Shown here piece by piece: positions 6,050 through 24,278 of a DNA stretch of 56,677 bases. Made by a program: the position numbers and the translations under genes. Source of the DNA: Desulfarculus sp. (GTDB taxonomy: Bacteria > Desulfobacterota > Desulfarculia > Desulfarculales > Desulfarculaceae); the NCBI GenBank assembly GCA_016208115.1, contig JACQYR010000072.1, forward strand, positions 1 to 56,677, given 5' to 3'. How positions within the stretch are numbered: the stretch's first letter is position 1; each line of letters begins with the position of its first letter. Under the pieces are notes generated by a model that was not told where the DNA came from, did not search any database, and saw only the letters and a program-made list of their open reading frames with translations.

Positions 6050-7738
6050 CTACTCGCCGTCGCTGTTGACCGTGCCGTCGCTGGCGTCGCCCGTGGTGGC
6101 GTCGGCGTTGTCGCCACTGGGGGCGCCGTTGCCGGTCAGCCAGGCGTTGTCGGGGATGGGCGCCAAGCCTGCCTCGGCTAGCAACCGTTGCTCGTACTGG
6201 CGCTGCTCCACCACCTCTTCCAGCACCAAGCCGCGCTTGGCCAGTTCATCCTCCAGGGTGGAGCGGTGGCCGGCCAGGCGCAGGGCCGCGCCTTGTTCCT
6301 CCTTCACCGGGTCTATGGAGCCCCGGCCGGCGCCGATCCACTTGGCGCGGCAATAGGCCTGGCGGTTCTCGTAGAACCCGGGCGCCTCCACCTCACCGCT
6401 GTTGACCGCTTCTTCCAGCCAGCACTCGTAGGCCGGTTGCGCCCAATCGCTGGCCAGCCATTCCCGCCGGCCCAGGAAATACCGCCAAGCCTCCAACAGG
6501 GCCGCGCGGGCGCTGCTGTAGTTGCTGCGTTGGAAGTTCTTCAAGAGCAGCTCGGGCGGCAGGTTGTAGCCCGTGCCTATCAGGCCGTATAAGGCCTCCA
6601 TCATGGGCGCGAAGGTGCCGCCCGGCCGGCCCGGTATGTGGCTTCTGGCCTGCTCGCCCGGTTGCAATGCGTAGATGCCGCCGGCCCGCAGGGCGGCGCG
6701 GGCAGCCTTGGTGCGGGCGTCCAGCAGGTCCAGGAGATTGGCGTCGCTGGTGCCGAAAAGCTCCATCAGGCCTTCTTGGCCCAGGGGCGTTTCGATAAAG
6801 AGCGCGATCATGGCGTTGACGATGGCCGATTGCAGCTCGGTCTGCATGAACTTGTCGAGCATGCGGAACTGCGGCATGATGGCGCTGGCGATGGGCACGC
6901 CCCGGTTCTGGCCGGCTCTAGCCTTATCGCGCACGTGGATAACCCGGCGCCGGCCCCAGGGGGTGCGCGCGGGTATGCGTTCCCACTGGCCGCTCAGCGA
7001 GCCGGAGCTGTCGAACATCACCGAGCCGTTCGCGCCGGTGGCCCGTCGGCGGTCCCACATGGCCCCCAGGCCCCAGCCGCCGCTTAAGCTGTCGTCGCCG
7101 GGGTGGGCCTTGCGAATGTGGTAAGCCACGGCCGCGCCGTAGGCGTCTATCTCGATGCCGCCACGCAGCCAGTCGCTGTCCGGCTGTCCGTCGGGATTGC
7201 TAAGGCGGTCGGCCTCGATCACCTGGAAGCAGGTAGCGTACTTGGGGTTGCGCCCTGGCAGCCACCGCACTATTACCAAGGCCTCGCCATTGCCCAGGGC
7301 GCCCCGAAGAACCTGGTTGGTCTGGCCGGCAAAGGCCAAATCCTGGGCCGCGTCGCAATAGATGCTCTCGGCAAAGTCCTGCCACTTGGCGGCGGTGCTT
7401 AAGCGCCAATCAATGGCCCACTCGTGGTCCTGACCCAACAGGCGGTAGTTGGGCTGGGGCACGCAGCGCAGGCCCTTGGGGCCTACGATGTTATCCACCA
7501 GGGTCTGGCTGGCCCCGTGGGCTATGGGGTGGTTGCGCTCCATGTCGCGGGAGCGCCGGCGCATGATGTCCAATTCGGGCAACAGATCGGCGTCGGCCGA
7601 GCCGCCGCGCGGCACCCAGGTGGCCATCTCCGGGCGCAACAGGTCCGCCGCCGCGTAGGCCCGCGCGCTGGGGCGATAGGGCTGCCCCGTGGCGTCCAGG
7701 ATCAAGCCCACGGGCTGATTGGTGCGAACGGGCAGCAT
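6050..7738 (-). CDS. Phage portal protein (lambda gpB family)
   Basis: 562 aa; DLLPELDIMRRRSRDMERNHPIAHGASQTLVDNIVG. Confidence 0.9.
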   Translation of the reverse strand: MLPVRTNQPVGLILDATGQPYRPSARAYAAADLLRPEMATWVPRGGSADADLLPELDIMRRRSRDMERNHPIAHGASQTLVDNIVGPKGLRCVPQPNYRLLGQDHEWAIDWRLSTAAKWQDFAESIYCDAAQDLAFAGQTNQVLRGALGNGEALVIVRWLPGRNPKYATCFQVIEADRLSNPDGQPDSDWLRGGIEIDAYGAAVAYHIRKAHPGDDSLSGGWGLGAMWDRRRATGANGSVMFDSSGSLSGQWERIPARTPWGRRRVIHVRDKARAGQNRGVPIASAIMPQFRMLDKFMQTELQSAIVNAMIALFIETPLGQEGLMELFGTSDANLLDLLDARTKAARAALRAGGIYALQPGEQARSHIPGRPGGTFAPMMEALYGLIGTGYNLPPELLLKNFQRSNYSSARAALLEAWRYFLGRREWLASDWAQPAYECWLEEAVNSGEVEAPGFYENRQAYCRAKWIGAGRGSIDPVKEEQGAALRLAGHRSTLEDELAKRGLVLEEVVEQRQYEQRLLAEAGLAPIPDNAWLTGNGAPSGDNADATTGDASDGTVNSDGE

Positions 7739-7968
7739 CAGAAATAAATCTCCAGGCGGCGGCAGCCGCCCCGGCCTAGGCCCTGGGCCGTGGCTATCTG
7801 GCGTTCCAGGTCGGTGATGTAGGCGCGCAGATCGGCCACGCTGGTGCGGCTGAACGTAACCTGGGTATCGCCGCTACCCACCGAGGCCTCCAGGGCACCG
7901 GTCAGCAAGCGGTGGTATGCCGCCTGGGCTTCCCCCAAGCGGGCCTGCAATTCGCTACGCTCGGGCAT
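7738..7968 (-). CDS. GpW-like head-tail joining protein
   Basis: 76 aa from MPERSELQARLGEAQAAYHRLLTG; lies in the 3' part of the long ORF 7738..9954 only because of the terminase frameshift. Confidence 0.7.
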   Translation of the reverse strand: MPERSELQARLGEAQAAYHRLLTGALEASVGSGDTQVTFSRTSVADLRAYITDLERQIATAQGLGRGGCRRLEIYF

Positions 7969-8015
7969 TAGTGCCACCTCAAAGCCAACAAAGTTTGTCG
8001 CGGCCTGGGCCGCTG

Positions 8016-9954
8016 TCACAAATAGGGGTCCGCCGGCAGGGTCACACCCGCTGGCGCGTGCGCGGGCACGTAGGATTGACGGGCCACCTCTAGGGGCGCG
8101 CCCTGGGAGATGACCGGCACCGCCGGCGCCTCCGGGGCTTGCCCCCGGGTCACCCGCCGGGCCTCGCGCTCCAAGTTCAGCCCCATGGCCTCCAGGCCGC
8201 ACAGCACCGCGTAGTTGTAGGCGAACAAGTCCAGGGCCTCGTTGCGCTGGCTGCTGCGTTTCTCCCACACCCGCACCGGGAAGCCGCGCTTGTAGCGGGT
8301 CACCAGGGTTTCGGCGCGGTACTGCTTGCAGAACTCCGCCGTGGTGCCCCTGGGGAAGGGGCAGAAGCCCGGGCCGGGCCTTCTTGGCCGCGTCTACGTT
8401 TACGTTCCAGAAGCGGTGGGCGTTCTTGCGGCTGTGGCTGAACTTCAAGGGCCACACCCGGTTGTGCAGGCCCTTGCTGTCGCCCTTCAAGGCCCAGACC
8501 CGCCGGCCCCAGCGGGCGCGGCAGAAGCGCAGCACCAGCTCGGTATGGTGCCCGCCGGAGTCCAGGCCCACGGCGCGCAGGGGCAAAAGCCGGCCGTCCT
8601 CGGTCTGCCAGGATTCAGCCAGCAGGGTGTCCAGGTCTTCCCAAAGCTCGGGGCGGCCGGGGTCGCCGGCCAGCACCAAATGCCGCACCTGCCAATTCTC
8701 ATAGCCCCGGCCCCAGCCGCGTATCTCCACCTCCAGGCGGTCGCCCTGCACGTCCACGCTGCCTATCAAGACCAAAACCCCGGCGGGCACCTCGCCCACC
8801 ACGTAAAGGGCGCGTTCGGCGCGCCGAACCAAGGCGTCGTCGTCCACCTGGGCGCCGGATTCCTCCCAGGTCTCGCCCAGCACCGTATTCACGAAAGTCC
8901 GCAGGCGGCCGGGCACGTCCCTAGCCGCCAGGAATTTCTTGACCAGGCGCGGCAAGGTCTGCCAGGGGCTATTCAGGGCGTTGAGCCAAAAGCCGGCCAC
9001 GCCGGCAAAGGGCCGCTCGGATCGCCAATGCCCGTTGGCTATGGCCGCCTGGCGCTGGGCCTCGCTCCACTGGCCGCCGCAATGCTGGCAGTAGTAGCGG
9101 GCCGTCTCGGGCAGGTGGAGGGCCTCGCCGTTTTCATCCAGCACCTCGTTGCCGTCGGCGTCCTGGGCGCTATCCCAGCGCACGTTGGCCCACATGAGGA
9201 TTTGATGCTCGCCGCAGTGGGGGCAAGGCACCCACCACTTCCGCCTGTCGCTGTCCTGATAGGCCGCTTCCACGCGGCTGGAGTCCTTGTCGCGGGGGCT
9301 GCTGAAATAGCCCACCTTGCGAAAGGCGAAGTTGGAGGTGCGGGCGTCCAGCAAATCCAGGGGGTCGCCCTCGCTGGTGGCCTCGTAGCGGTCCACCTCG
9401 TCGGCCAGGGCCACGCGGGCCGGCCGCGCCGAAAGATCGGCGGCGCTCTGGGCGCTGACGATATCCAGTTGCCCCCCGCGAAAGCCCTTGGAGAGCGTCG
9501 TGTTCTCACTGTCGCGCCCCTTGGGCTCGGCGATCAAGGCCGCCAGGGGGGCGCTGTCCTTTATCATGGGCGCCAGGCGCGCCCGCGAAAAGTAGCGCGC
9601 CAGGTTCAGCGTGGGCTGGGCGATAACTATTGGGCTGGGGTCAACGTCTATGAAGTAGCCGCACACGTTCAGGATGATCTCGGTCTTGGCCAGTTGGCTG
9701 GCCCACATGCACACCACCTTTTCTACCGCCGGGTCGGAGAAGGCGTCCATGACCTCGGCCGTGTAGGGCGCCCGCTCAGTGCGCCACTGGCCGGGCTCGC
9801 TGGCGGCCTTGCCGCTAAGCCAGCGGTGCAAGTCCGCCCATTGGCTGACCGTGGTGTCAGGGGGCGGGCTGATGGCCCGCGCCAGAATCTGGCCCAAGAT
9901 CGCCGAGACTTCGGAAGCGCTGAGATAGATCGTCGAGGATTGTTCTGACTTCAT
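8016..9954 (-). pseudogene. Phage terminase large subunit (lambda GpA family), frameshifted near 8370
   Basis: N-terminal and ATPase/zinc regions in one frame up to NVNVDAAKKARPG; C-terminus GFCPFPRGTTAEFCKQYRAETLVTRYKRGFPVRVWEKRSSQRNEALDLFAYNYAV in another frame. Confidence 0.85.
8814..8829. promoter_or_regulatory. Palindrome GTTCGGCGCGCCGAAC, candidate parS-like site 3
   Basis: Perfect 16-bp palindrome inside terminase gene. Confidence 0.35.
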
Positions 9955-13531: not shown

Positions 13532-14149
13532 TCAGGGCAGCAAGCCGGCTTGGCGCAGCACGTGCCGGGCCTCGTGCACCAGGCGCGCGTCCAGGCGCCG
13601 TTGGGCCTCGGGCACCACCCGCTCCCGCACGCCGGTGTTCTTCATCTGCGAAGCCACCGGGGGGCCGGTCATCTTGCGGATGGGCGTGCGCTGCTTGCCC
13701 TTGCGCTGGAAGATGCCCAGGCCCGTGTCCCCGCCGGTGCGGCTATTGCGCATGGGCGCCACGAAGGAATGCGGCAGATAGCCGCCCCGGTCCTTGCGCA
13801 CCCGCACGCGGATGCCCTTGGGCGGACGGGCCTTACCCGAGCCAGGCATTTCCTTGGGGCGCACACCCGCGAAGTGCATCAAGGACAGGCGCTGGTAGCC
13901 CTCCCGCCTGGGGTCGGTGCGCACCTCGTACACGCCGCGCCGGGCCGAGGCCTTGCTGGTGTACAAACGTTCCTTGATGGCCCGGGCCGTGGTGGTGTAC
14001 TGGGCGCGCACGCCCTGGGAGGTCAGCGCCGCCAGGCCCTGGCCGGTGCGGTTCAAGGCCCGCTCCAGGGCCTTGGGCATTGCCCCCGGCACCCGGACCA
14101 GCCGGGCTTCCAGGGGTTGCACCTGGCTCCAGTCGGCGACGATCTCCAC
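13532..14149 (-). CDS. Prophage minor tail protein Z (GpZ family)
   Basis: EIVADWSQVQPLEARLVRVPGAMPKALERALNRTGQG; GTG start assumed. Confidence 0.75.
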   Translation of the reverse strand: MEIVADWSQVQPLEARLVRVPGAMPKALERALNRTGQGLAALTSQGVRAQYTTTARAIKERLYTSKASARRGVYEVRTDPRREGYQRLSLMHFAGVRPKEMPGSGKARPPKGIRVRVRKDRGGYLPHSFVAPMRNSRTGGDTGLGIFQRKGKQRTPIRKMTGPPVASQMKNTGVRERVVPEAQRRLDARLVHEARHVLRQAGLLP

Positions 14150-14163
14150 TGCGCGCTCCTTGG

Positions 14164-14209
14164 CCAAAAAGAAAGACCCGCCCCCCACGGAGGAAGGGGG
14201 CGAGTCTTT
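14164..14209 (-). terminator. Intrinsic terminator
   Basis: Minus-strand AAAGACTCGCCCCC...GGGGGCGGGTCTTTCTTTTT stem followed by T tract. Confidence 0.65.
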
Positions 14210-14377
14210 GGGCAGGCTTGATGTCGCGGAATACTGATGTAAATTCTAAGGGCCGACCGGTTGCCCGGCGGCCCATTCTATCGCTTGCGCGCAAATCCGC
14301 AGTTTAGAAATTTATGGCCTTTTTCTAACCAAAACGCAATTGCAAGTTTCGTCATATTTCGTCATTTTTCGCCGGGC

Positions 14378-14596
14378 CTAATTTTTTTGGCCGGCAGCCC
14401 GGGCCGCCCGCTTGTCGGTCCACTCCTGCAAGGCGTCCGCGGAGGTCAGAATGCGGCGCCCTCGCACTTCGATGGGCATGGGCAGGGCGCTTTCCAGGTT
14501 ATCCCTATGCAAGGCCTTTAGGTCGCGGTAGCTTAAGCCCAGGGCCTCGGCCGCCTCGGCCCAGGTGGTGATTATGTCCACGCGCTTGCCGCTCAC
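14378..14596 (-). CDS. Small HTH DNA-binding protein, phage
   Basis: TTWAEAAEALGLSYRDLKALHRDNLESALPMPIEVRGRRILTSADALQEWTDKR. Confidence 0.55.
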   Translation of the reverse strand: MSGKRVDIITTWAEAAEALGLSYRDLKALHRDNLESALPMPIEVRGRRILTSADALQEWTDKRAARAAGQKN

Positions 14597-15030
14597 ACCA
14601 GGCGCCTGGCCCTCGCGAACGCCACCAAGGAACGTAAGGCGTCGTGCAGCAAGCTCTTGTACTGCCCGGGCGTTAGCTTCAACAAACATAAAAAATCCTG
14701 CCATTGCCTCCCCCTGGGCCAGGCGTCGCCCTGCATCTCCACCAGGGCTAGCACGTAGATTTGCTGGTCTTGCTCCAGGCCGGCGAAGGCCAGGTTGAAT
14801 TCCTCCACGCGGCTGGGGTCGCGCGGGGCCGTGGAAGGAATCAGGCAGAAGCCCGGGCCGGCCACGGTCACCGCCGCCCCGCCTTTGATTTCAAAGCGAA
14901 AGCCCGCCTCGGGTAGGCGCATGGATTTGGGCTGGCCCACGGTGCTGCGCCATTCGGCCCACAGGTTCAGCAATTCCCACAACCGCTCCGGCGCCCAGTC
15001 GGGCCACAGGTTCAGATGCGCCCGTCTCAC
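14593..15030 (-). CDS. Hypothetical phage protein, possible late-gene regulator-like
   Basis: 145 aa ORF, ATGA-type overlaps with neighbours. Confidence 0.5.
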   Translation of the reverse strand: MRRAHLNLWPDWAPERLWELLNLWAEWRSTVGQPKSMRLPEAGFRFEIKGGAAVTVAGPGFCLIPSTAPRDPSRVEEFNLAFAGLEQDQQIYVLALVEMQGDAWPRGRQWQDFLCLLKLTPGQYKSLLHDALRSLVAFARARRLV

Positions 15031-15860
15031 CAGCGTCCCTCCGCCTCGATCATGCGAAAGCTCTTGCCCTCCACCAAAACCCCGTCGGCCTTGATAAGCC
15101 GCGCGATGGTGCGGTCAAAGGGGTCCTTGAACACCTTGGCCAGTTCGGCCGGCGGCAGGTTGGTGGTAATCACCGTAGGCAACTTGTGGTCGGCGCGGTG
15201 GTTGACCAGCTTGAAGAAGCAATCGCGCTCGGCCTTGCGCGGCCGGTCCGCGCCCGGGCCGCCCACCTCGTCCAGCAAAAGCAGCCCAGCCGCCTTGGCC
15301 CGCGCCTCCAGTTCCCGGGCGGGGCCGCCGGCGCGGTAGGAGTCGGCCACCAGGTCGAACAACTCGGGCAGGGAAAGCCACAGCGGGAAGTTGCCGTCGC
15401 CTTCCAGGGCCTGGCGGGCCAGGCACCAGGAAAGCACCGTCTTGCCCGAACCCTCGGGGCCGAAGAGATACAACGTGCCCCGGGCCGCGTGCCAGTAGCG
15501 GCAGGCGCGAAAGGCCGCGTGCCACAGGGCGAAGTCGGCCGGGTCGCGCTTGACAGCCTCTGCGCGGGCCAGGGCCGTGTCAAAAGACCAGTCGCGGGCG
15601 GCGGCGGGCAGACCGGAGAGACGCCAGCGGCGGGCCTCCGGGTTTTCCTGGCCGCCGGGCAGCATGCGGGCCGCCTGGGCCGCCTCGCAGCTTGGGCAAA
15701 GGCCGGGCTGGAGCCAACGCCCATGGGGGTGATCGGGCCACCAGTCCAGCCACACCGCTTCAACCGCCTGGCCGCAGCCCTGGCAGATTTCCGGTTCCGG
15801 CTTTCCCGGCGGTGGCCCCGTCCGGGCCGCTGCCCCTGTTTCGTGGGTCGAGGTGTTCAT
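15027..15860 (-). CDS. DnaC-like replicative helicase loader ATPase
   Basis: LYLFGPEGSGKTVLSWCLA, GLLLLDEVGG, TVITTNLPPAEL; N-terminal CxxC...CxxC zinc motif. Confidence 0.85.
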   Translation of the reverse strand: MNTSTHETGAAARTGPPPGKPEPEICQGCGQAVEAVWLDWWPDHPHGRWLQPGLCPSCEAAQAARMLPGGQENPEARRWRLSGLPAAARDWSFDTALARAEAVKRDPADFALWHAAFRACRYWHAARGTLYLFGPEGSGKTVLSWCLARQALEGDGNFPLWLSLPELFDLVADSYRAGGPARELEARAKAAGLLLLDEVGGPGADRPRKAERDCFFKLVNHRADHKLPTVITTNLPPAELAKVFKDPFDRTIARLIKADGVLVEGKSFRMIEAEGRW

Positions 15861-16689
15861 ACCGGCTTGCTCCTTCCGCGTCGCCTTTGCCTTTGCTCCC
15901 TGCCGCCCCTGCCGTGGCCCCCGCCGTTTCGGGCGGGGGGGCTTTGGGGGGGTCTTTAGGCTCCGGATCCGGATCCGGAGCGCGCGCACGCCCGCGCGGG
16001 CACTCGCACGCGCGAGACCCCCTACCAACCCCCTCCGAACCCCCTGGCAACCCCCTGGCTACCCCCTTCGAAGCCCCTTCCGACCCCCTCCCGACCCCCT
16101 CGGCAGGGGGTACCAAGGGGCTATCAACCCCCTCGGCAGGGGGTTCCGAGGGGGTCGGTAGCCCATCGGCAGGGGGTTCGGAAGGGGTGGACAAAGCTTG
16201 GGGGCAAGGCCGCGCCAAGGCCGCGCGCCGGGCCAGCAACTCGGCCACCAGGTCGGGTAGGTCGCGCAGGGCTTCGCGGGCCTTGCCCCGGCCCTCGGCC
16301 TGGGCCGCCGCCAGAACATGCTCCAGGGCCGGCAACAACACCGGGGAATCGGGGAACTCCCGCAATACCGCCACGGCCCCGCGTACCTGGTTCAGGCCCT
16401 TCACCGGCGCGAAATCCAGGGCCATGGGGTTGAACAAAAGCCGGGCCTCCTCGTCATAGGCCACCAGCCCGGCGGCCACCAATTCGTCCAGGGCGGCCCG
16501 GGCCATGGCCTCGTCCCAATCCCGCACGCGGGGCACGGCGTCAGCGGGCACCCAGCGCATGACCCCCAGCATGGTGCGGCCCCGGCTGTACAGGGTCAGC
16601 ATGAACAGCCGATAGGCGTCGGAACTCAGGGCCTCCACGCGCCGGTCGTAGTCCAATACATCACCGCGTATGGTGCAGTAGCCTGGCAA
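15760..16689 (-). CDS. Phage replication initiator-like protein with repetitive linker
   Basis: 309 aa upstream of dnaC-like gene; 11-aa period STPSEPPADGLPTPSEPPAEGVDSPLVPPAEGV. Confidence 0.65.
   Translation of the reverse strand: MPGYCTIRGDVLDYDRRVEALSSDAYRLFMLTLYSRGRTMLGVMRWVPADAVPRVRDWDEAMARAALDELVAAGLVAYDEEARLLFNPMALDFAPVKGLNQVRGAVAVLREFPDSPVLLPALEHVLAAAQAEGRGKAREALRDLPDLVAELLARRAALARPCPQALSTPSEPPADGLPTPSEPPAEGVDSPLVPPAEGVGRGSEGASKGVARGLPGGSEGVGRGSRACECPRGRARAPDPDPEPKDPPKAPPPETAGATAGAAGSKGKGDAEGASRYEHLDPRNRGSGPDGATAGKAGTGNLPGLRPGG
16017..16192. repeat. 16 consecutive 11-bp iterons (ACCCCCT/AGGGGGT plus 4 nt)
   Basis: Units start at 16017, 16028, 16039, 16050, 16061, 16072, 16083, 16094 (C-rich), then 16105, 16116, 16127, 16138, 16149, 16160, 16171, 16182 (mostly G-rich). 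Confidence 0.9.
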
Positions 16690-16692
16690 GAT

Positions 16693-17379
16693 TCAAGCTC
16701 CGTGGTGGTGATCTCCGGGGGGCATCTGAAAGGCGATTGCCCACACCGGCCGGTTGGCTTCCCAACCCAAACCGCGCGGGCCGTTGACCGCGTCCCACAG
16801 GCTGGCAAAGCTGGTGCGGGCGAATTCGAAGTGCATGTCAGCCAGGTAGTTGCGGTATAGCCCCGACGGCAGGCGTTCCACGCCCTCGGCCAGGGCGTCT
16901 TCTTCGCTTATGTCCCACAACCACTGCGCCGCCGCCCGGGCTATTTCCAGGCTGATGCGGCTGCGCTGGCGGGGCCTGTGAATGGCCGGGCGCCACTTGC
17001 CGGGCGGCGCTGACGGCGGGCTGGCCCGGTAGTGCGTCAGGGCCGGGTTGTCGGCCCGGGGCGCCCAGGTTTCCTTCACCCAAATAAAATCGCCGGGCTG
17101 GTGGATGGAACAGACCCGGTGCCAGGTTTCGTCCCCGGGCTCCAACAAGCTGGGCACCTTGAAGTAAGGGCCGGCGCCAAAGATGGAACCGCCGGGGTCC
17201 ACCACGGCGCGGCCCCAGTCCAGGCTGTCCCATAGCGCGCGTCGCCGGCCCCGATAGCCCACGCCCGCCCCGTCCAGGGTGGAGTTGTGCCAGGTGACCA
17301 CCCGCCGGGTCTGGGTCTTGCGCCCGGCCAAGAGGGCCTGCACCATGGCCCCCTTGAACAGCAAGGGGTGTTCCCGCAT
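16693..17379 (-). CDS. Phage ASCH/PUA-like domain protein
   Basis: LLFKGAMVQALLAGRKTQTRRV ... GDFIWVKETWAP ... DALAEGVERL pattern of phage ASCH proteins. Confidence 0.65.
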   Translation of the reverse strand: MREHPLLFKGAMVQALLAGRKTQTRRVVTWHNSTLDGAGVGYRGRRRALWDSLDWGRAVVDPGGSIFGAGPYFKVPSLLEPGDETWHRVCSIHQPGDFIWVKETWAPRADNPALTHYRASPPSAPPGKWRPAIHRPRQRSRISLEIARAAAQWLWDISEEDALAEGVERLPSGLYRNYLADMHFEFARTSFASLWDAVNGPRGLGWEANRPVWAIAFQMPPGDHHHGA

Positions 17380-17386
17380 GGCCGGC

Positions 17387-17935
17387 TCAATCCGCCACGG
17401 CCCAGGGCTGGCTGTGGGCCAGGTGGGTCAGCCAGTTGTGGGCGTATTCCTGGGCGGCCTGGCGGGAGTTGACCGCCATAAGGTTCTCGGCGTTGCGGGC
17501 CTGGGCGCTGGCCGTCCAATTGAAGGAGCCGGCCAGCACGGTGCGCTGGTCTATGACCATCACCTTGTTGTGGGCGATGGCATGGGCCGCGTCCACGTAC
17601 ACCTGCACGCCGGCCTGGGCCAGGCGGCCGGCCTGGCCGCCCTTGGCCGCGCGCTGCCCCTTGTCCACGATAACCGCCACCAACACCCGGCGCTGGTGGG
17701 CGCGTATCAGGGCCTCAGCTCTGGGCTGGCTGGTGAAGCTGTAGGCCTGCACCAATACCGACCCCCGGGCCTTGTCCAGCCTGGCCACCACGGCGGCGGT
17801 CACGTCCTGGCCGGGCGTGAACAGGGGTTGCACCGTGGCGCGCGTGGCCCCGCCTTCTTGGCCATGGGCCGGCGCGGCGGGCAAAAACAGGCATAGGGCC
17901 AGGGCCAGGGCGGCCAGTCGTTTTGCAATGGTCAC
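17387..17935 (-). CDS. Exported phospholipase D-family endonuclease (Nuc-like)
   Basis: Signal peptide, single HKD motif IAHNKVMVIDQRTVLAGSFNWT; GTG start assumed. Confidence 0.8.
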   Translation of the reverse strand: MTIAKRLAALALALCLFLPAAPAHGQEGGATRATVQPLFTPGQDVTAAVVARLDKARGSVLVQAYSFTSQPRAEALIRAHQRRVLVAVIVDKGQRAAKGGQAGRLAQAGVQVYVDAAHAIAHNKVMVIDQRTVLAGSFNWTASAQARNAENLMAVNSRQAAQEYAHNWLTHLAHSQPWAVAD

Positions 17936-18282
17936 GGCAATTCCTCCCGGTGGTTGCAGGGCGCGGCGGGGCGGGAATTGCACCCGCCTGGGATACGTCC
18001 GGGGCTCATTCGTCCCTTTGTCCCGCTTGTTTCGGCCTTGGCCACAGACAGCGTGCGATGCATGAAGCGCCTGGAATGCTTGCGCCCGAGCTTCAACGGC
18101 CCCGACCCCGCTGGCAGGCCCGACCACCAGACCCGCCCACGCCTATGGCGTTTTCCAGCCTCTCGTTCGCGCCTTCCATGGTTATTGCGCCGCATCGGTT
18201 CTGTTCCCTCGCCGGCCTACTCCGTGGGGGCGTGTCACTGTCCACGCCGCCGCCGCGAAAACTCTTGCGTTCACCCTCTATA

Positions 18283-18564
18283 CTATACAAACGTATGCAG
18301 GCTGAAAAGGCCCGCGCCTGCCCGCCGGTTCTTCCACACGCCCCGGCCCCAAACCGCCACGTAGGCCAGGCTCAAGGCCAGCCAGCCCCATTGGCCGTTT
18401 TGCCAGGTGCCCCAAATCCAAAAGGGCTGGGAGGCCAGGCCCAGCAGGTTGCCCACAAAGGCGCGGCCCTGGTGGTGGCTCTGCGCCAGCACCAGGGCCG
18501 GTAGGCCCAACAAGGCCGCGCCCCATTGGGTCAGGTCCGGGGCCATCAGGCGCAGCCCTTGCAA
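18283..18564 (-). CDS. Small membrane protein
   Basis: 93 aa hydrophobic ORF in prophage early region. Confidence 0.45.
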   Translation of the reverse strand: MQGLRLMAPDLTQWGAALLGLPALVLAQSHHQGRAFVGNLLGLASQPFWIWGTWQNGQWGWLALSLAYVAVWGRGVWKNRRAGAGLFSLHTFV

Positions 18565-18896
18565 CCCAGGGCCATGATGATTGCAAGGCTTATGAGCAGC
18601 CGGCCCAGAAGGCGCAGGCCGCGCGCGGCCAGGGAGGCGGGGGCCGGGCCTGGTCCCTGGGGGGGAGGAACCAAGGCCACGGCCCCCGCCTTGGGGGGCT
18701 CGTATTGTGGGCAGGGGTTCACAAAGGGCCGCCAGGTCTCCGGCCGCAAGGGGTCCACGTTGGCGGGGTCAAAGCGCGGCGGTTGCTCGCCAGCTTCCAC
18801 CAGGAACACCCGGGGCAGGCCCGGGGCCGCGCTGACCAACTGGGGTGGCAGCGCGGGCCAAGCTTGGCCTTGTTGAATCGCGGGATCGGCCATCAC
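18546..18896 (-). CDS. Hypothetical proline-rich protein with C-terminal TM helix
   Basis: 116 aa, LLGRLLISLAIIMALGCKGCA C-terminus; overlaps parB start region. Confidence 0.45.
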   Translation of the reverse strand: MMADPAIQQGQAWPALPPQLVSAAPGLPRVFLVEAGEQPPRFDPANVDPLRPETWRPFVNPCPQYEPPKAGAVALVPPPQGPGPAPASLAARGLRLLGRLLISLAIIMALGCKGCA

Positions 18897-20080
18897 CCTT
18901 TACTCCCGGCTGGGGTGGGTTCATCAGGCGCCCACCCGACTCCCCCGCCCAGCCTTTCCAAGAGTTCAGCAAAAGCGCCAGGGTCGCCGGCCTGTCCGTC
19001 GGCGGCCTCCTGGCGGGCCAATACCAATTGCGCGGCCAACTCGCTGGGGTGCAAGGGTTGGCCATCGTCGTATAAATCGCGGCCCAGGGCCGCCCGCGCC
19101 TGGGCCATGCCTTCCCGGCGCACCAGGGCCAACAACCGCGCGCGCAACTCCGGCGTCCAACGCTGGGCGTCGGCGTGGGCGGCGCGCTTCAGGTGGTGAA
19201 ACAGCCGGTCCAAGGCGCGGGCCATGGGTTGCAGGCTGTGCCGGGCGTAGGCCCGCTGGCGATAATTCAGGCCGTCCAGGTCCAGGGCCGTCAATTCGCC
19301 CGCTAGTTGTTCGGCGCGCCGAAACAAGGCGTCTACCCGGGCCAGCCCGCTGTCGCCCTCGCGGGGTGGCTTAGGCTTGGCCGGCGCCTTGGCGGCGGGC
19401 AGGCGGCGCAAAGCCCGCAGATCATCGCTGTTCATCTGGCCGGCGGCCACGTTATTGGCCAATACCTCGATACGCCCTGGCCCCTGCTTGGCCAACTCCA
19501 CCAACACCCGCTGGGGGAACTTGTCGGGATTGGCCGCCACCAGTTCCTTGACCCCGGCCAGCTTGGCCAGGCTCAGGATTTCGGAAACCGTGCTCTTGGC
19601 CTTGCCCGCCACCTTGGCCAATTGCCCCAGGCTTAGCCCTCGTTCCTGTTGCAAGCGGGCATAAGCCTCGGCCTCTTCCAGCGGGGTCAGGTCGCGGCGG
19701 TGCAGGTTCTCGATCAAGGCCAATATGGCCGGGTCGCCGGCGGTGACCGTGCAAGGCACGCGGGTAAGCCCTGCCAGGCGGGCGGCGCGCAAGCGGCGCT
19801 CGCCGGCCACCAACACCACCTGGCCGCCTTCCACCCGCACCAACAAAGGCTCCAACAAACCATGCTCGCCTATGCTGGCGGCCAGGGCCTGCAAGGCTTC
19901 CTGGTCGAAGTGGCGGCGGGGCTGCTGGGGGTTGGCGGCTATGCGCGCCGGGTCAATCTCCAGGAAGCGCCCGGCCGCCGGCGCCGCCGTTGGCGCGCCC
20001 GGGCCAAGGCCCAGGCCGCTGGCCAGGCTGGTGGCCAGGCTTATGGGTTGCCCGGCCAGCTTGTCGGCTAGGCCGGCCAT
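18893..20080 (-). CDS. parB: ParB partition protein (prophage)
   Basis: [83 protein letters not shown]. Confidence 0.92.
19310..19323. promoter_or_regulatory. Palindrome TTCGGCGCGCCGAA, candidate parS-like site 4 (inside parB)
   Basis: Perfect 14-bp palindrome. Confidence 0.4.
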
Positions 20081-20826
20081 ATGCCCTCCACCTCGGCGGC
20101 CAAGGCCTGGAAGTCTTGCGCGCCCTGGCTGCGTGGCGAATAGAGGGCCACCGGCTTCTGCATGATGGCGGCTTGGTTGATGGGTTCGTTTTGGCGAATG
20201 CGGGTATTCAACATGGCCGCGCCGGCCTGGGCCAGTTGCCCGTTCAACCAGGCGGCCACGGCCCGGCGGGGGTTGTGCTTGTTGACCAGGAAGCGGTATT
20301 GCCCGGCAAAGCCCTGGCCCTGGGCCAACAGCCGCACCGTGCCCAGGATGGTGGCCAGGCCCTCCAGGGCGTAGCGGCCGGCCTCGATGGGCGCTATAAC
20401 CAAATCCGCCGCGCGCATGGCCCCCAGGGTCAGTTGCCCCAGGCTGGGGCGGCAGTCCACCACGGCGTAGTCATAGGCCAAGCCCTTCAAGGCCGCGCCC
20501 AGGGCCTCCAGGCCGTCCAGGCGTTCGTAAAGCCGGGCCTCGGTGGTTTCCATCACCACGCCGTCGCTGGGGGCCACGGCCAAGCCGGGCACCGCCGTGC
20601 CCCTTGCGGCCTTGGCCAGGGGCGCGCCGTAGAGCAGGGCGTCGGACAGGGGGTAATCACCAGCCGCGCCGGCCGCCAGCCCCAGGCCCTGGGCCAGGTT
20701 GCCTTGGGGGTCCAGGTCCAGGGCCAATACCTGGCGCCCCTTCAGGGCCAGGCAGGCGGCCAGGTTCAAGGCCACGGTGGTCTTGCCCACCCCGCCCTTT
20801 TGGTTGGCTATGGCGATAACCCGCAT
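20068..20826 (-). CDS. parA: ParA partition ATPase (prophage)
   Basis: [27 protein letters not shown] deviant Walker A. Confidence 0.92.
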
Positions 20827-20828
20827 GT

Positions 20829-21293
20829 TTACTTGCTCCCCGCGTGATTGGCCTTGGCCTCCAACAACACCGCCGCCCGCAGGCAAGCCAGGGCCTGGGC
20901 CGCCTCGTTGATTTCCTGTAGCGCCTGCTCGGGTTCATCAAGCTTGCCGTCGGCCAGGTCGCTGCAAAGCTGCTGCAACACGTCGGCGCATTCCCGGGCC
21001 GCCGTGGCCATGGATTGATGCAGGCGCCCCAAGCCGGCCGCGCGCGGCAACTCAAAGGCCACGCGCCCCAGGGCCGTCTCCATGTAGTCAAGCGCGGCAA
21101 AATCTTTGGAGCGCGCCGTGATGTACACCAGGGTGTCCAGGCCCAGCTTGGCGCCATGGTCGGTGGGGTACATCTCGCGGGAAAGCGTGGTGTAGCCCTT
21201 GCCGGCGGCTTCGGCCAATTCCTCCAACGGCACCCCGGAACGGGCGGGTATCCCGTGTATCAGTTTGCGTAGCGTGGCGGGCTGGAAAAGCAT
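20829..21293 (-). CDS. CII (CP76)-like phage regulatory protein
   Basis: 154 aa; [33 protein letters not shown]. Confidence 0.55.
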
Positions 21294-22127: not shown

Positions 22128-22466
22128 GCGCCCATTGGGCCAACGGCGCCGGGGGCGCAAAGGGGTGGAAGGGCTTTGATGGGGGGTGCCCGGCCTCGGA
22201 AGGTGCGGAGGCCGGCGAAGGGCAAAAGCCCACGCCAGGCCGTAAGCCCCATCTTCGGGTACTCAATGGGGGGAAACCTAGCAAGCCATTGACGGAACAG
22301 TGAACCGCCCCGTGCCCGCCGGGGCGGCGGGAGGCGAACATATTTTGTTGCCGGAGGTTACTAAAGCCGGCATACTTGAAAAATACAACAGATTGTTTTT
22401 GCATGATGTTCCCGATGCCACCGCACGGGGATGGACCTGTTATTTGCAAGACTTTATGGAGGCCCC

Positions 22467-22679
22467 ATGAAGTTTCGAGTGTTGATGGAGCGTGATGAAG
22501 ACGGCGTGTTCGTTGCCACGGTGCCAGCCCTGCCCGGCTGCGTTTCCGACGGCCGAACCCTGGCCGAGGCCAAGGCGAATATCCAGGAGGCCATCAAGCT
22601 CTACTTGGAAAGCCTGGCCGCCCACGATGAACCCATACCGCCCCCCATCCCCGAGGAGTTGATAGAGGTCGCCCTGTGA
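22467..22679 (+). CDS. hicB: HicB-like antitoxin
   Basis: MKFRVLMERDEDGVFVATVPALPGCVSDGRTLAEAKANIQEAI. Confidence 0.85.
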   Translation: MKFRVLMERDEDGVFVATVPALPGCVSDGRTLAEAKANIQEAIKLYLESLAAHDEPIPPPIPEELIEVAL

Positions 22680-22906
22680 CCAAGCTTCCAGTGGTTTCAG
22701 GCCGGCGCTTGGTGGCGGCCTTGGCGGCCATGGGATACCGCCTGGATAGGCAACGGGGCAGCCACATGATGCTGCGCCAAGATGATCCCCCCTTCAGGCG
22801 TCTCACAGTCCCGGATCACGCCGAGTTGCCCAAGGGCACGCTTAGGGCCATACTCCGCGAGGCCGGACTCACAGTTGACGAGTTGCTTGGCCTGTTGCAA
22901 GGCTAG
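22676..22906 (+). CDS. hicA: HicA-like toxin
   Basis: LVAALAAMGYRLDRQRGSHMMLR...TVPDHAELPKGTLRAILREAGLT; overlaps hicB, GTG start. Confidence 0.85.
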   Translation: MTKLPVVSGRRLVAALAAMGYRLDRQRGSHMMLRQDDPPFRRLTVPDHAELPKGTLRAILREAGLTVDELLGLLQG

Positions 22907-23063
22907 GGGCTGCAAGGCTAGGGCTTGACACCCATGTCGGCCGGGGATAGCATGCATCCATCAGGCGCCCACCTGAACCCCCCGCCCAGCCCGGAGTTGC
23001 TCCGGGTTGGGCGATCTGCTTTCAGCGCATACGGCCAGCCAGTTTGCCGCCTGGGGGCTCTGC

Positions 23064-24278
23064 ATGCGGGGTAAGGTCATCGCCCGCCAGCGGTGCCCCG
23101 TGTGCGGCCAGGCGGGGCGCTATGCCGTTAGGGACTTTGGTCCCGGTCGGCAGGCCCTGGTTTGCCAGTGCGGTCAGCACATCTCCGACCGGCCCGAGAT
23201 AGAGCTAATCCATAAACGCAAACGCCTGCGCATCACCCATGGGCAGGACGGCCAGCGCTTCCGCCTGTACGAGCATGCCGCCAGGGCTCTGGGCGTAATT
23301 CGCGACCAGATTGAGCGCGGCGCCTTCTATGCCGAAAGCTGGCAGGGTACCCGCGCCAGCGGCTTGGTATGGGAGAACTATGTTTCCGCCTGGTTGGAAC
23401 GCCAGCGGATCAAAATGCCCGAAGGCACCTACAACACCACCGAGGACCGCTGCAAGCACCTTGCCTGGTTCAACGGGCTCAACGTCCGCGAGTTGCGCAA
23501 CGGGCACCTGGAAGATTTTGCCGTACACCTCAGCCAGGGTCGCCTCAAGCCCTCCACCCAGGGAGCGGTGATAGTCACCTTACGGGCCATCCTGAATGGG
23601 GCCTATCGGCGGGGCGACATAGAGAAGCCCCTAACAGTGCCCCTGCCCGCCCTGCCCCATCATCCTCGCAAGCACTTGACCGCCGAACAACAGGCCTTGG
23701 TCCTGAAACACATCCTGGAGGAAGACCAGCCCATCTTCTTGTTCCTCATGCAGTTCGGCTGCCGGGTGGGCGAGGCCTGCGCCCTGTGCTGGGACATGGT
23801 GGACCAGGCGCGGAGCCAGTTCCTGATTGCCCGCACGCACAGCGCCTGCCGTTGGCTTGACTCCACTAAAACCCGGAAAGACCGTCCCATGCCGATAATG
23901 GGGTGGTTCGAGGGGTGGCTATCGCGGCAGGAGCCGGCGGTGGGCAGAGTTCCAGTGTTCATCAACCCCGATGCCTGGACCAAGGAGCGTAACTACAACA
24001 ACACCTGCCTGGCCCGGCTATGGAAGCAGGCGCTTAGGGCCGCGGGCCTGGAGCACGTACCGCTTAAAAACGGAACCCGCCACAGCTTGGGCTTTGCCCT
24101 ACGCCATGCCGGGGCCGACATGGATGGAATAGCCCGCGTGCTGGGGCACTCCAATCCCAAGACCACCAGAGTCTATGTCGAGGATGATTTGGCGGCTACG
24201 GCGGAACTTTTAGGCAACGTGAACAGGGCGCGCGTGATTAGGCTTGCTGACCAGCGGATGACCAAGCCAAAAAACTGA
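23064..24278 (+). CDS. Tyrosine recombinase/phage integrase with N-terminal zinc-ribbon-like segment
   Basis: GCRVGEACALCWDMVD, NGTRHSLGFALRHAGADMDGIARVLGHSNPKTTRVYVE. Confidence 0.9.
   Translation: MRGKVIARQRCPVCGQAGRYAVRDFGPGRQALVCQCGQHISDRPEIELIHKRKRLRITHGQDGQRFRLYEHAARALGVIRDQIERGAFYAESWQGTRASGLVWENYVSAWLERQRIKMPEGTYNTTEDRCKHLAWFNGLNVRELRNGHLEDFAVHLSQGRLKPSTQGAVIVTLRAILNGAYRRGDIEKPLTVPLPALPHHPRKHLTAEQQALVLKHILEEDQPIFLFLMQFGCRVGEACALCWDMVDQARSQFLIARTHSACRWLDSTKTRKDRPMPIMGWFEGWLSRQEPAVGRVPVFINPDAWTKERNYNNTCLARLWKQALRAAGLEHVPLKNGTRHSLGFALRHAGADMDGIARVLGHSNPKTTRVYVEDDLAATAELLGNVNRARVIRLADQRMTKPKN

Follow-up and report, generated by a model that had tools for sequence, protein, structure and literature searches.

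The window, a 56,677-nt stretch of Desulfarculus sp. DNA, raises the question of why a gene for a putative phage replication protein should contain a long run of short repeats at a constant 11-bp pitch, and whether this run could be a replication origin. The gene (15760-16689, minus strand) starts with TTG and encodes 309 aa, arranged as an N-terminal domain (approximately residues 1-160), a linker encoded by the repeats and a short C-terminal part. Its first 145 residues matched phrog_25711 (1.6e-8) and phrog_1701, a DnaD-like helicase loader (2e-5), with modest scores, and searches of the protein against Pfam and NCBIfam gave no match. AlphaFold2 modeled the N-terminal domain confidently (pLDDT 82.5). 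A winged-helix-like fold is tentatively predicted for this domain, as its Foldseek hits were mostly winged-helix regulators, none of them below E = 0.001. Judged by its profile matches, the product is a DnaD-like phage replication protein, referred to below as the initiator.

The 3' end of the initiator gene is overlapped by a 277-codon frame with a putative start (15027-15860, minus strand), which matched phrog_50 (7e-28), phrog_3277 (1.5e-16) and IstB_IS21 (6e-11), in agreement with the original prediction of a DnaC-like gene directly downstream. By these matches, the gene encodes a DnaC-like AAA+ helicase loader. A DnaC-like loader is also found downstream of the initiator gene in a relative, L054, and in another, L037 (1498-3333), initiator and loader appear as a single open frame of 611 aa. 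The contig additionally carries genes for a terminase, a CII-like regulator, ParA/ParB and an integrase-like protein (23007-24278), a gene content as expected of a prophage. The terminase frame (7738-9954, 738 aa) matched the GpA ATPase and nuclease domains, with gpW near its end, which suggests a fusion or a frameshift of two genes. Two small adjacent genes at 22431-22906 resemble a HicB/HicA toxin-antitoxin pair on reading of the sequence.

The repeat array occupies positions 16017-16192 within the initiator gene (minus strand) and consists of sixteen contiguous 11-bp units with the core ACCCCCT or its inverse AGGGGGT. Every 11-bp slot from 16017 onward carries the motif, as had been predicted. 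Exact cores are present in 12 of the 16 units and the other four are degenerate, at 16072, 16116 and 16182 (one mismatch each) and at 16160 (two mismatches); the original prediction counted three, having overlooked 16116. On the plus strand, units 1-8 are all C-rich, and units 9-16 read G, G, C, G, G, C (degenerate), G, G, which fits the earlier description of the last eight as mostly G-rich. The coding strand presents a simpler order: the array starts with three triplets of 33 bp, each made of two C-rich units and then a G-rich one (16192 to 16094), and continues with seven tandem G-rich units (16093 to 16017) in one orientation, C-rich on the plus strand. Tandem Repeats Finder reported the 33-bp period across 16094-16188 with an 82% match. 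A duplication step of 33 bp, the smallest length divisible by both 11 and 3, leaves the phase of the units and the reading frame intact. The pattern ACCCCCTNNNNACCCCCT, allowing up to two mismatches, had 11 matches compared to 1.35 expected, and exact double units occurred nowhere in the 3.99-Mb assembly except in this array. Chance is excluded as the source of the array.

The location of the units inside a coding sequence calls for a distinction between selection on DNA and selection on the encoded peptide. To make it, codons of the initiator gene were exchanged among synonymous positions, leaving the protein identical, and the number of exact cores in the best phase was scored. In 20,000 such protein-fixed shuffles the score did not rise above 7, compared to 12 in the real gene. 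The units occupy all three codon phases in both orientations and thus encode different tripeptides, among them TPS, EPP, EGV, RGS and PGG. The gap between real and shuffled scores shows that the pattern belongs to the DNA and does not simply follow from the linker peptide, as had been suggested from the period, and a peptide-level explanation of the array was rejected. If the DNA period had no function, the array would be a tandem repeat evolving neutrally or a product of peptide selection in the linker. This would be in keeping with the low complexity of the linker and with the past duplication to which the 33-bp repeats point. We regard this explanation as very improbable, given that the observed score was never approached by the shuffles and that slippage produces neither inverted units nor a joint change of both orientations from phage to phage.

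Such joint changes were seen among the relatives of the initiator. Whole-genome searches identified few close relatives, namely six related genes (31-42% identity) in four genomes (G012, G015, G016, G019) of the same bacterial family; L036 and L041 are near duplicates, and the L054 gene is the same as that of L038. In every one of the six, the DNA of the corresponding linker carries units at 11-bp spacing. The core is ACCCCCT in L036 and L041, TACCCCC in L037, AGCCCCT in L038, TACCCCA in L039 and AACCCCT in L042; it is shared by forward and inverted copies within each phage and varies between phages. The 11-bp pitch is retained while the core, the array length and the linker peptide diverge. 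This is the reverse of the outcome that the original prediction had named as its refutation, a conserved linker peptide with loss of the DNA period. A binding protein shared by both orientations would explain the paired change of forward and inverted cores, whereas slippage or peptide selection would not. With the strict-phase score, the window gene, L036 and L038 lay above all protein-fixed shuffles. The scores of L037, L039 and L042 (three of the six) did not exceed those of synonymous shuffles because their arrays are short and interrupted, and the evidence in these genes consists of the shared spacing and core. L037 uses a different reading frame for the DNA that codes for a DPEPEP-type motif in its relatives, which fits a weakly constrained linker peptide.

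Similar arrays were found well beyond this family. An actinophage contig, L016, was identified by the DNA pattern alone, and its array proved to lie inside a replication initiation gene of the phrog_3171 type. Relatives of L016 have 11-bp arrays with the cores ACCCCCT, ACCCCGT or ACCCCAT, and in more distant initiators, from phages of Gordonia, Mycobacterium and Thermobifida, the same linker contains arrays with a pitch of 11 or 12 bp, often with units in both orientations. In the genes tested, the actinophage arrays scored above protein-fixed shuffles. The same scan gave no clear array in Walrus, Taptic and Squirty, and the feature, though common, is thus not present in all. The phrog_3171-type initiators resemble the window initiator in that a related N-terminal domain is followed by the same linker, with arrays of a core consisting of A, a C run and T. 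They differ from it in the sequence of this domain (∼17-18% identity), in their smaller number of units and, often, in a less G+C-rich segment directly after the array. Protein searches of the viral contigs with the window domain or its DnaC, and with L039 or L042 as single queries, gave no match. L048 matched phrog_1701, phrog_25711 and phrog_3171, and by these profiles links the DnaD-like and actinophage initiator groups.

The 12-bp arrays of actinophage initiators (L085, 1657-1815; L086, 1714-1851; L090, 1994-2160) contain in-frame units that yield a peptide repeat, unlike the 11-bp arrays. Because the 12-bp arrays can be explained at the peptide level too, they count for less than the 11-bp arrays. 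In the viral contigs with three exact units (n = 28), the array was inside a recognised initiator gene in one case and beside a primase/helicase gene in two. These two are L001 (914-1000) and L013 (3123-3198), whose AGGGGGT-type 11-bp arrays adjoin primase/helicase-like genes and are possibly further origins. Tandem TTGCAAGGGGG 11-bp arrays in L010 (12430-12470), L011 (15-66) and L024 (6269-6320) are located outside any ORF of at least 60 aa, and the nearby ORFs tested at these three arrays had no PHROG match.

The array might act not as a set of protein-binding sites but through DNA or RNA secondary structure, as hairpins, G-quadruplexes, a single-strand origin or a transcript signal. The neighboring C-rich and G-rich units at 16094-16192 form inverted repeats with 4-bp spacers that can pair, and this part was predicted to fold as a single strand (minus strand, z = -4.88). 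However, the one-orientation run was unfolded on the plus strand, the sole strand tested (16017-16101, z = -0.02). The arrays of L066, L075 and P1312 have nearly all units in one orientation, and the cores of L082 contain only two or three C. Moreover, folding does not need a single-turn pitch, and no Rfam match was found within 14000-19000. These observations make a purely structural role improbable, though slightly less so than a neutral repeat.

No AT-rich unwinding region adjoining the array was seen in the window. The lowest-GC 50-bp stretch of the initiator gene is at the gene start (58% GC), and the least G+C-rich stretch within 900 bp is near or upstream of this start. The original prediction had read the orientation switch as a possible strand-opening signal. 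Orientations on the plus strand do change, but on the minus strand the change is really one from three 33-bp C-C-G triplets to a G-rich run, and a role in strand opening is unsupported because no AT-rich segment adjoins the array. Cumulative GC skew had no clear turning point at the array. A CG-alternating segment is located directly 3' of the array (15980-16014, minus strand). By sequence comparison a similar segment follows the array in most relatives (L036, L037, L038, L039) and in some actinophages, but the segment is statistically weak in the window phage and exceeded synonymous shuffles in only 4 of 18 genes tested.

The main rival explanation is regulatory: the array would be an operator or titration site through which the initiator, or some other regulator, controls expression or copy number, and replication would start elsewhere. 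Plasmid iteron arrays often have such control roles, and the missing unwinding element, together with the position of the least G+C-rich DNA near or upstream of the gene start, would suit this explanation. On the other hand, the array lies ∼500 bp past the start of the gene and inside it, an unusual place for an operator, and the position of the arrays in the linker is constant across distant initiators. Several actinophages, furthermore, have their lowest-G+C segment immediately 3' of the array. The same is true of lambda, where a stretch of 26% GC directly follows the iterons. On balance, a purely regulatory site is unlikely, but it deserves more credit than either of the preceding alternatives.

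Since some plasmid centromeres are short iteron arrays, the array was also considered as the partition site of a nearby ParA/ParB pair. ParB and ParA-like genes are present at 18893-20886, only 2.7 kb from the array; a second, weaker ParB match is on contig C263. However, G012, G015, G016 and G019 each contain a single ParB match, which is on a contig other than that of the array, and for this reason a centromere is unlikely. The array travels with the initiator and loader genes and not with parAB. As co-occurrence of array and parAB was not found in the genomes of the four relatives, the centromere was rejected, and we give it as little chance as a neutral repeat.

In lambda, the initiator-binding iterons are located inside gene O, the same layout as described in the literature (PMC7466680, PMC6022878). 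The two loci share iterons in the middle of the initiator gene, a helicase loader gene next to it, and inverted C-run/G-run half-sites one helical turn apart; the four annotated lambda iterons contain inverted TCCCT/AGGGA half-sites spaced by 12 bp. In lambda, four palindromic iterons of 18 bp adjoin an AT-rich segment, whereas the window has sixteen 11-bp units of mixed orientation without an AT-rich segment, and its loader is of the DnaC-like AAA+ type. Compared with lambda-type inverted-repeat iterons of 18-19 bp, the window units are 11 bp long, and only some neighboring pairs are inverted. The window protein had no Pfam match to Phage_rep_O (PF04492), compared to 5.7e-36 for lambda O itself, and family profiles searched against lambda O gave no match, so that no homology to lambda O was detected. 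The half-sites, location and loader are alike, but the length, number and orientation of the units and the protein family differ, and on present evidence the array would thus work like the lambda origin while being a candidate origin outside the lambda O family.

Phage SPP1 offers a second parallel, as oriL lies inside gene 38 (PMC6316719). Its gp38, likened here by description, is an origin-binding protein whose repeats likewise lie within the gene encoding it, and helicase loading is the task of a separate protein (PMC6316719); oriL differs in having direct repeats and an AT-rich unwinding element. The origins of the mycobacterial prophages Miko, Rachaly and Jeeves were mapped experimentally to the RepA initiator gene and a short upstream region (PMC7157519). 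RepA-type origins were rejected as support: Lokk RepA and its homologues in Miko, Rachaly and Jeeves belong to another protein family, unrelated to the window initiator, and the Lokk gene has no array, so these origins lend the window array no direct support. An origin inside the initiator gene is a known kind, of which the window array would be a new version with more and shorter sites than lambda. A lambda/SPP1-type origin inside the initiator gene is the best reading.

Taken together, the sequence comparisons make it likely that the initiator binds within its own gene, at the array (16017-16192), and that the array is hence the core of the prophage replication origin. Each 11-bp unit would provide one half-site for the N-terminal DNA-binding domain of the initiator, and with one site per helical turn the bound proteins would be aligned on one face of the DNA. 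They would assemble into a structure like the O-some of lambda, next to the DnaC-like loader, which would bring in the replicative helicase. We infer four steps: that the gene's own product binds the array, that a nucleoprotein complex forms, that the DNA melts and that the helicase is loaded. A broader proposal, which we offer tentatively and consider rather doubtful, is that a widespread class of phage origins consists of half-sites that each span a single helical turn (11 or 12 bp) within the gene of the initiator. In such origins, the way in which the half-sites are ordered and oriented would direct the assembly of an initiator filament on one face of the DNA, and G+C-rich phages would open their DNA with no need of an AT-rich element, perhaps at the CG-alternating stretch next to the array.

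To our knowledge, no origin has been described for this phage group, although the literature covered consisted of open-licence papers, so that arrays of this kind may have been reported before. The group thereby gains a precise origin prediction, and the sequence rule behind it, a core repeated at an 11- or 12-bp pitch in the initiator linker, also picks out many of the actinophage initiators found here. As the cores change in step within each phage, initiator/array pairs could be swapped to learn how these proteins read DNA, and with no AT-rich segment beside the array, how such origins open becomes a clear question.
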